Assembly (NCBI RefSeq): GCF_000169455.1
Contig: NZ_AAYC01000003.1
Coordinates: 186,001-250,000 of the forward strand
DNA: 64,000 nucleotides
Reading direction: 5' to 3'
From: Roseobacter sp. SK209-2-6
GTDB lineage: Bacteria; Pseudomonadota; Alphaproteobacteria; Rhodobacterales; Rhodobacteraceae
Part shown: piece by piece, positions 21,625 to 23,181 of the stretch
Layout: each line of letters opens with the position of its first letter
How positions within the stretch are numbered: the stretch's first letter is position 1
The notes under the pieces: model-generated
What the model saw: only the letters and a program-made list of their open reading frames with translations
The model's database searches: none
Told to the model about the DNA's origin: nothing
Made by a program: the position numbers and the translations under genes

Positions 21625-22356
21625 ATGACCCAGACCACAGCCGACGACCGCCTGATTGTTGCCATGGATGTGCCGGACGCCCTGTCGGGGCTGAAACTGG
21701 CGGAACAACTGGGCGATGCGGTCTCTTTCTACAAGATCGGGCTGGGCATGCTGACAGGCGGCGGCCTCGCCCTGGCCAATGAGCTGAAACAGGAGCAGGG
21801 CAAGCGCATCTTCCTGGATATGAAGCTCTTTGACATCGGCGCCACCGTCGAGAACGCAGTGCGCGGGCTGGCGCAGTTCGACCTGGATTTCCTGACCGTG
21901 CATGGCGACCCCTATGTGGTGAAAGCCGCCAAGGAAGGTGCGGCGGGCAAGGATCTGAAGATCCTGGCGGTGACCATCCTCACCTCGCTGGACCGCGCCG
22001 ACCTGGACGGCGCCCTGATCAAAGAAGGTGAGATCCGCGATCTGGTGCAGGAGCGTGCGGGCAATGCCTTTGCAGCTGGCGCCGATGGGGTAATTGCCAG
22101 CCCGCAGGAAGCCGCCCTGATCCGCGCCCTGCCGGAAGCCGCAGGAAAGCTGATCGTCACCCCCGGTGTGCGCCCGGCGGGTGCTGCCCTCGGTGATCAG
22201 AAACGTGTCGCCACCCCGGCAACAGCCATTGCAGATGGCGCCGATCACATCGTTGTGGGCCGACCGATCTGGCAGGCTGAAGATCCCCGCACAGCGGCAC
22301 AATCGATCCTGCAAGAGCTGCAAAACCAGCAAGCAAGCCATCCTAATCGAGGATAA
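21625..22356 (+). CDS. pyrF: Orotidine 5'-phosphate decarboxylase
   Basis: The enzyme converts OMP to UMP, the last step of de novo pyrimidine synthesis. The 243-residue TIM-barrel protein carries the catalytic D-x-K-x-x-D signature in FLDMKLFDIGATVENAVRG, with DRLIVAMDVPD at the N-terminus, VTPGVRPAG and GADHIVVGRPIWQAEDP at the phosphate-binding end. The ATG at 21625 follows a GC-rich leader without a strong Shine-Dalgarno, but family alignment supports it. It is divergent from clpB. Confidence 0.96.
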   Translation: MTQTTADDRLIVAMDVPDALSGLKLAEQLGDAVSFYKIGLGMLTGGGLALANELKQEQGKRIFLDMKLFDIGATVENAVRGLAQFDLDFLTVHGDPYVVKAAKEGAAGKDLKILAVTILTSLDRADLDGALIKEGEIRDLVQERAGNAFAAGADGVIASPQEAALIRALPEAAGKLIVTPGVRPAGAALGDQKRVATPATAIADGADHIVVGRPIWQAEDPRTAAQSILQELQNQQASHPNRG

Positions 22357-22666
22357 ACCGATCTAGCCCATTTGGTGCTCGTGCGGGTATTCGGCCCGCT
22401 TCTGCCTCTATTTTGGTATACCCAAACCAAAATGCACAAAATTTAGGCGGAATAAAAACATGGTGCCTAATGTATCTTTTAGGGCAGCCAAAAGCGTTTT
22501 TGCTGAATTTACGTAAGGTCAACTTATTCAAGTGGAACGAAAAACCACGTTTTACATGGATTTCTGTGCCAAATTGTCACGTCACAGGAATGTCACATAT
22601 CTATGGAAACCGCGCCATTGCTGCAGCCGCGAAATTTGCGAAACCGCGCCAAATCAAGGATTCTAG

Positions 22667-22745
22667 GGGCAAGACACTCCCCAGACGAAAACCTCTTCCT
22701 GAGTTTCGTCTCCTGCCCCCGCCTAACCCGCGGGGGATTTTCTTT
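22667..22745 (+). ncRNA. Candidate trans-acting small RNA with pyrimidine-rich loop and terminator
   Basis: In the pyrF-NUDIX gap there is a perfect 8-bp stem AGACGAAA/TTTCGTCT (22683-22690, 22704-22711) closing a 13-nt loop ACCTCTTCCTGAG, followed at once by a rho-independent terminator CCCCCGC-N7-GCGGGGG (22716-22736) and ATTTTCTTT. A plausible promoter TTGCGA-N17-GATTCT lies at 22636-22664, predicting a transcript of about 75-80 nt. CCTCTTCC in the loop is complementary to Shine-Dalgarno sequences, as in several alphaproteobacterial sRNAs. The terminator is too far from pyrF to be its obvious end. The prediction rests on structure only. Confidence 0.5.
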
Positions 22746-22770
22746 GGAGCCTTCAATCAGATTTCAACCG

Positions 22771-23181
22771 CTACGCAGTTCCTGCTTCATCCAGGTAATC
22801 CTGCAACCGCTGCGCCAGATGTGGAACCGCCAACTCGTGGCCGCAATAATCCTCTGGTGCCATCAAAGACCAACACTGACCCTCATCCCCCAGCTTTATC
22901 TGCTTAACCAGTTCTGGCGGTTGACGGGTGACAAAGAACCAAACAAGTCCCCGCGGTCTAGAATAGGATCTGGACCAACAAATATCCCCTTCGGGAATTT
23001 TTAGCCCCACTTCCTCCCAGGCCTCTCTCAGCGCGCAGTCCTCAGGCTTTTCCTCTCCTTCGCGCCCACCTCCCATAAGGTCCCAATGCCCCGGGTAGGG
23101 GATCTCTGCCTTGTCGTCCCGCTGAACAACAAGCAAGTCATCCCCAATGAACAGGGCAAGTTTGGCACCGGAGAACTCCAT
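22771..23181 (-). CDS. NUDIX hydrolase
   Basis: A 136-residue single-domain protein with the full Nudix box: GGREGEEKPEDCALREAWEEVG fits G-x5-E-x7-REUXEE-x-GU. Nudix enzymes hydrolyse nucleoside diphosphates linked to another moiety; substrate cannot be inferred. It is divergent from dinB across about 100 bp. A role in sanitising damaged nucleotides would suit the neighbourhood, but is unproven. Confidence 0.85.
   Translation of the reverse strand: MEFSGAKLALFIGDDLLVVQRDDKAEIPYPGHWDLMGGGREGEEKPEDCALREAWEEVGLKIPEGDICWSRSYSRPRGLVWFFVTRQPPELVKQIKLGDEGQCWSLMAPEDYCGHELAVPHLAQRLQDYLDEAGTA

Follow-up and report, generated by a model that had tools for sequence, protein, structure and literature searches.

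Among the stress sRNAs of Rhodobacter sphaeroides, CcsR1-4 carry a C-rich motif. They are described as four homologous copies processed from one transcript together with ccaF1 (PMC10253847). The alphaproteobacterial sRNA NfeR1 silences ntrBC through anti-Shine-Dalgarno seeds, and alpha-r14 RNAs are portrayed with three hairpins, each leaving an identical CCUCCUCCC motif unpaired, in which the stems vary and the seeds stay (PMC10746234). StsR (RSs0827) of R. sphaeroides, a 72-nt RNA controlled by RpoHI/RpoHII, binds UpsM, an sRNA derived from the dcw leader (PMC8307010), and the UpsM leader itself has been described in the same species (PMC5089854). For Ruegeria pomeroyi, one study gives 30 trans-sRNAs with sizes and predicted targets (PMC4809877). 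In the open-access literature searched, we found no paper on a pyrF-adjacent sRNA in Rhodobacteraceae.

Analyzing a stretch of 64,000 nucleotides from Roseobacter sp. SK209-2-6 (the window), we find that the DNA after pyrF very probably carries the gene for a small RNA with a regulatory role, so far unnamed and kept by many related bacteria. The feature is real, beyond chance. The RNA segment forms the last part of the intergenic region between pyrF and a NUDIX gene (22672-22745, + strand), and the locus is laid out as follows.

21625..22356, + strand: pyrF, orotidine 5'-phosphate decarboxylase (PF00215, E 1.3e-49), the constant upstream neighbour in 52 of 52 genomes
22636..22664, + strand: promoter-like element, TTGCGA (22636-22641), 17-nt spacer, GATTCT (22659-22664); conserved columns, putative function
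22672..22745, + strand: sRNA of about 74 nt (fold z -4.12; covariance model E 2.8e-17 in its own genome; onset of conservation)
22676..22682, + strand: 5' unpaired C-rich segment ACUCCCC, candidate seed 1 (CUCCC in 52/52 members, CUCCCC in 50/52)
22683..22711, + strand: hairpin with arms 22683-22690 and 22704-22711, supported by covariation
22691-22703, + strand: hairpin loop, with CUUCCUG at 22695-22701 as candidate seed 2 (48/52 members)
22712..22745, + strand: linker CCTG and rho-independent terminator 22716-22736 with tail ATTTTCTTT (terminator scan, fold, alignment)
22771..23181, - strand: convergent NUDIX gene (PF00293, E 2.5e-14), an inconstant neighbour (67 of 92 testable named loci)

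Read in order, the RNA of the window consists of AGACACTCCCC, AGACGAAA-loop-TTTCGTCT, a GC-rich stem and a U-rich tail. The initial annotation, made from the sequence alone, had proposed a candidate sRNA at 22636-22745; these coordinates are correct, and the RNA itself would span about 74 nt from a start near 22671-22672, where most blastn matches begin. The perfect hairpin that it claimed is there, with arms AGACGAAA (22683-22690) and TTTCGTCT (22704-22711) pairing throughout around the loop ACCTCTTCCTGAG (22691-22703; in summary form CUCUUCCUG), as is the terminator directly after it, for which both the terminator scan and the fold find the stem 22716-22736 followed by a U-rich tail. The locus has the general anatomy of a trans-acting sRNA gene, namely an intergenic position, a terminator, a conserved structure and unpaired seeds, with a promoter of its own indicated by conservation.

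Neither the families of Rfam 15 nor the descriptions of alpha-r14/NfeR1 and CcsR1-4 accommodate this RNA. A scan of the whole window against Rfam 15 returned only two tRNAs at threshold, and a permissive scan of 22360-22770 gave sX13 (RF02232) as the best sRNA match, scoring 17.9 bits (E 0.36) where the gathering score is 50. Membership in any Rfam 15 family was therefore rejected, and as far as Rfam 15 goes the earlier statement that no named family fits is right. The sX13 RNA of Xanthomonadaceae has its hairpins in a comparable order, with a terminator last, but the RNA studied here falls below its gathering score and is not a member. Like alpha-r14 and NfeR1 of rhizobia, it is a short alphaproteobacterial sRNA whose C-rich unpaired seeds could match ribosome-binding sites; unlike them, it has a single hairpin plus terminator, with CUCCCC and CUUCCUG as seeds, and the window's copy contains no CCTCCTCCC. 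With CcsR1-4, which are stress sRNAs, it shares the bacterial family, whereas it is a single-copy RNA that has its own promoter-like element and follows pyrF; its neighbours are pyrF and NUDIX genes rather than the DUF1127 gene ccaF1, and the genome holds one match rather than four copies. StsR, compared through its published description, is similar in length and comes from the same bacterial family. We conclude that the sRNA family is real, that Rfam 15 has no model for it, and that it belongs to a kind already known, the C-rich "anti-Shine-Dalgarno" sRNA.

Folded alone, 22672-22745 forms a free 5' end, one hairpin and the terminator (z -4.12), and none of 200 shuffles was as stable. The full interval 22636-22745 gave z -2.53, with 2 of 200 shuffles as stable, and its reverse strand z -0.66. 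The loop had been described as exposed, which is true of UUCCU, but in the minimum-energy fold CUC and GAG within the loop can pair, so that CCTCTTCC is not fully exposed in the window's single sequence. The loop GAG is absent from many relatives. GGGG at 22666-22669 lies just before the inferred start and could pair with the 5' CUCCCC if transcription began earlier, which would mask that seed (window 22666-22682); based on the conserved promoter columns, we place the start after GGGG.

Mapping the RNA across genomes, we found that it is confined to part of the family. In blastn, the query 22560-22760 found matches in 9 of 120 family genomes, among them the window's own genome; one match (L008) is short and without pyrF. 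Two covariance models, the first built from seven members and the second from 52, both gave strong matches in 52 of 394 sampled Rhodobacteraceae genomes (E <= 3.8e-10 and E <= 4.2e-14, respectively), followed by a gap to the next match at E 2.9e-8; at looser cutoffs, 70 of 394 genomes matched the first model (E <= 0.01) and 71 the second (E <= 0.001). The own genome has one covariance match. A 53rd, diverged member stands at pyrF in G215 (E 8.2e-7); it differs in linker and terminator but retains the stem together with ACACTCCCC and CTCTTCCTG. Searches beyond the strong members set the limits of this distribution. In a class-wide sample of 289 genomes, just two scored better than 6e-5, the window's genome and one further genome of its family, and eight weaker matches from other families (E 6.4e-5 to 9.4e-4) are taken as chance. 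Downstream of pyrF in 38 match-free genera (of 40 with pyrF located), the first model, run unfiltered with an E limit of 1, gave three matches; the best of them (E 0.0097) lies on the opposite strand.

The genomic position is nearly fixed. The RNA adjoins pyrF in all 52 strong-match genomes, and an exact pattern search of GTDB genomes returned 111 loci in named records, with pyrF directly upstream on the same strand in 103, too little DNA to tell in 7, and pyrF about 1.3 kb away in one (L186). On the other side, dinB follows the RNA in 90 of 92 testable named loci and a NUDIX gene in 67. Names among the matches include Ruegeria (R. pomeroyi, L146), Phaeobacter, Pseudophaeobacter, Roseobacter, Tateyamaria, Sedimentitalea and Sulfitobacter sabulilitoris; many are roseobacters, and many others are metagenome-assembled genomes named only to family. 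On reading, the weaker matches away from pyrF (L061-L075) mostly look like unrelated GC-rich terminators. The one most resembling the family, L062:1501-1578 (G066, E 2.9e-8), lies just past the dps stop codon and has CUCCC, a stem GGCGAACC/GGUUCGCC, a loop with CUUCCU and a terminator; it may be a distant relative, a moved copy or a convergence.

The initial annotation had named a lack of stem conservation in relatives as one finding that would refute it, and the stems are conserved. When the 52 members are aligned by fitting them to the model, 96.5% of cells pair against a shuffled mean of 93.5, 7 pairs are changed on both sides against 2.4 in shuffles, and 32 cells against 7.0, with the qualification that such an alignment favours the model and that related sequences can beat shuffles. 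When the partner strand is slid, pairing falls to 42-59%. In the best-pairing register, 399 of 408 cells pair, compared to at most 378 in 1000 shuffles, for 51 of the 52 members (L060 left out); this choice also favours pairing and is wrong for L057, whose row is counted. Compensation is clear in single sequences, as L034 has GACGGGC/GCCCGTC and L046 has GATG/CATC where the usual arms are GACGAAC/GTTCGTC. There is little variation in the terminator stem, which contributes little here. By parsimony on a quick tree of PyrF, a short and poorly resolved protein, pair 1 switches Watson-Crick type at least 11 times, a count that includes L057 with its wrongly set stem register; because of that register and the poor resolution, we do not lean on the parsimony counts.

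The unpaired segments are almost constant. Among the 52 members, CUCCC is present in all, CUCCCC in 50 and CUUCCUG in 48, so that the loop named in the initial annotation is well kept but is neither the sole nor the most constant element. The linker before the terminator reads ACCU in 44 of 52 members, where the window has CCTG instead. Where the motif is present, the mean probability of being unpaired is 0.94 for CUCCC, 0.86 for CUUCCUG and 0.92 for the ACCU linker. Members are 73 to 80 nt long. A coding origin of the conservation was rejected on this single-base length variation (73 to 80 nt) and on the compensatory stem changes. Read from the window's sequence by itself, a chance hairpin beside a terminator might be suspected, since a single-sequence promoter scan is empty there and the four terminator-like sites of the region lie near the shuffle mean of 2.9. 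We regard this as extremely improbable and reject it, as it is contradicted by the covariation, the synteny and the constant sequence seen in 52 genomes. Thus, the sRNA reading is strongly supported by compensatory stem changes, near-invariant unpaired segments, fixed synteny and conserved promoter columns.

Whether the RNA has its own promoter separates the preferred reading from another. The promoter-like sequence noticed earlier, TTGCGA-17 nt-GATTCT, stands on conserved columns, although a simple sigma-70 scan of the region does not list it. In the 40 members that do not begin with TGATAC, T occurs at -36 in 33 and at -8 in 32, with G or A at -13 and A at -12; in the 12 TGATAC members the T/G columns are shifted by about two bases. 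If instead the RNA were the 3' end of the pyrF mRNA, with no promoter of its own, the hairpin and terminator would end or protect that transcript, or an RNase would free a 3'-UTR-derived sRNA. This would suit its constant place beside pyrF, at a median of 124 nt from the stop codon, a terminator able to end pyrF read-through, and the pyrF reading frame of L043, which as traced by script extends into the sRNA. However, the promoter-like columns are conserved immediately before the RNA start, the near-invariant single-stranded loop and 5' end are unneeded by a terminator, and the distance from the pyrF stop codon varies up to 383 nt among the 52 members and reaches about 1.3 kb in L186. An origin as the pyrF 3' end is therefore unlikely in our judgement.

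The reading that we consider reasonably probable is an independent sRNA gene, with a promoter and a terminator of its own, for an RNA of about 74 nt that acts in trans and blocks ribosome-binding sites through its C-rich segments. Transcription would run from the promoter-like element to the terminator, presenting unpaired C-rich stretches in the 5' ACUCCCC, in the loop UCUUCCUG and, in most relatives, in the linker before the terminator. These stretches would most likely pair with G-rich ribosome-binding sites of the GGGGAG, CAGGAAG and GGAGG types on what would be several mRNAs made elsewhere, blocking ribosome binding and favouring mRNA decay, perhaps with the involvement of Hfq. The anti-Shine-Dalgarno function is what we infer from the conserved unpaired C-rich segments, and silencing by NfeR1 offers an analogy. 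Counting against it, the seeds CUCCCC and CUUCCUG differ from the consensus anti-Shine-Dalgarno sequence.

Target searches by exact complement in 22 genomes found no broadly conserved target. The sequence GGGGAGTGT occurs shortly before an ATG at 21 places in 12 of the 22 genomes; a single pair among them is orthologous, formed by the adenosylmethionine decarboxylase genes of the window's genome (G000) and of G200. At the start of adenosylmethionine decarboxylase (L249, L254), GGGGAGTGTCATG is complementary to ACACUCCCC in the 5' part of the sRNA. A two-part complement search of the same number of genomes gave 25 places, 21 of which are the sRNA gene itself, the only place where it recurs.

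Alternatively, the main partner of the RNA might be a different RNA or a protein, for which it would serve as sponge or decoy, rather than ribosome-binding sites; in a special case it could be the roseobacter counterpart of StsR and bind UpsM. The length of StsR, given as 72 nt (PMC8307010), is close to the approximately 74 nt found here, and by our reading an UpsM-like leader precedes mraZ in the window's genome. Duplex scans of the sRNA against the mraZ leader, using 100 shuffles in each of 10 genomes, gave ranks of 2, 19, 2, 51, 1, 69, 23, 3, 20 and 2, that is, 1 to 3 in five genomes but 19 to 69 in the other five, and simple letter shuffling controls poorly for RNAs that are structured and GC-rich. 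Moreover, no Rhodobacter or Cereibacter appears among the named exact-pattern matches, a pattern that could miss them. Overall, action on another RNA or a protein seems to us fairly unlikely. The leader before mraZ (L335:900-1330; L333-L342) is structured and has a terminator-like hairpin, and it is this that we read as UpsM-like.

Upstream of the sRNA in half of the relatives, the operator-like palindrome GTCNGGNATNCCNGAC touches the -35 box. It reaches at least 9 of 12 informative letters in 26 of 52 members (0.6 expected from letter shuffles) and at least 10 of 12 in 20 of 52 (0.06 expected), a test that is partly circular because the consensus was drawn from the same sequences. The 26 copies hold a near-fixed place, starting at -58 to -51 (for example, L028, L029 and L047), and the palindrome is absent in both genomes of the window's genus (L026, L052). 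An exact search of 15 genomes found it at 15 places in 7 genomes, compared to 3 for a reversed control; 6 of the 15 lie at the sRNA and 2 upstream of hemA (5-aminolevulinate synthase). Within about 320 nt upstream of hemA, at least 10 of 12 palindrome letters occur in 9 of 30 genomes (0.6 expected), and in 7 of 28 when the two genomes that prompted the test are removed. As a lead only, the palindrome upstream of hemA is a putative shared operator. At 16 bp, it might be the Iron-Rhodo-box of IscR, although that box is described as a 19-bp palindrome (PMC4618611). A second inverted repeat, GTGCC-N6-GGCAC, lies at about -90 in 10 of 52 relatives (for example, L012, L013, L023 and L050; an 11th listed match lies elsewhere and is excluded), shortly past the pyrF stop codon, and may be another site or a short hairpin within the pyrF mRNA. 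In the most far-reaching reading, which we think quite improbable, a clade-wide roseobacter RNA would stand under a dedicated regulator with the 16-bp operator GTCNGGNATNCCNGAC at its -35 box and sometimes at hemA, acting as the RNA component of a regulon tied to haem or iron and shutting down several mRNAs simultaneously through its C-rich seeds, with a rewired promoter in the window's genus.

Since Rfam 15 misses this RNA, the family merits a covariance model. It has a fixed position, clear covariation and near-invariant seeds, and it is present in Ruegeria pomeroyi and Phaeobacter. If the haem or iron regulon proved true, the RNA would be a functional counterpart of RyhB reached by a different route. 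Importantly, the RNA family is a ready experimental entry to RNA regulation of marine roseobacters.
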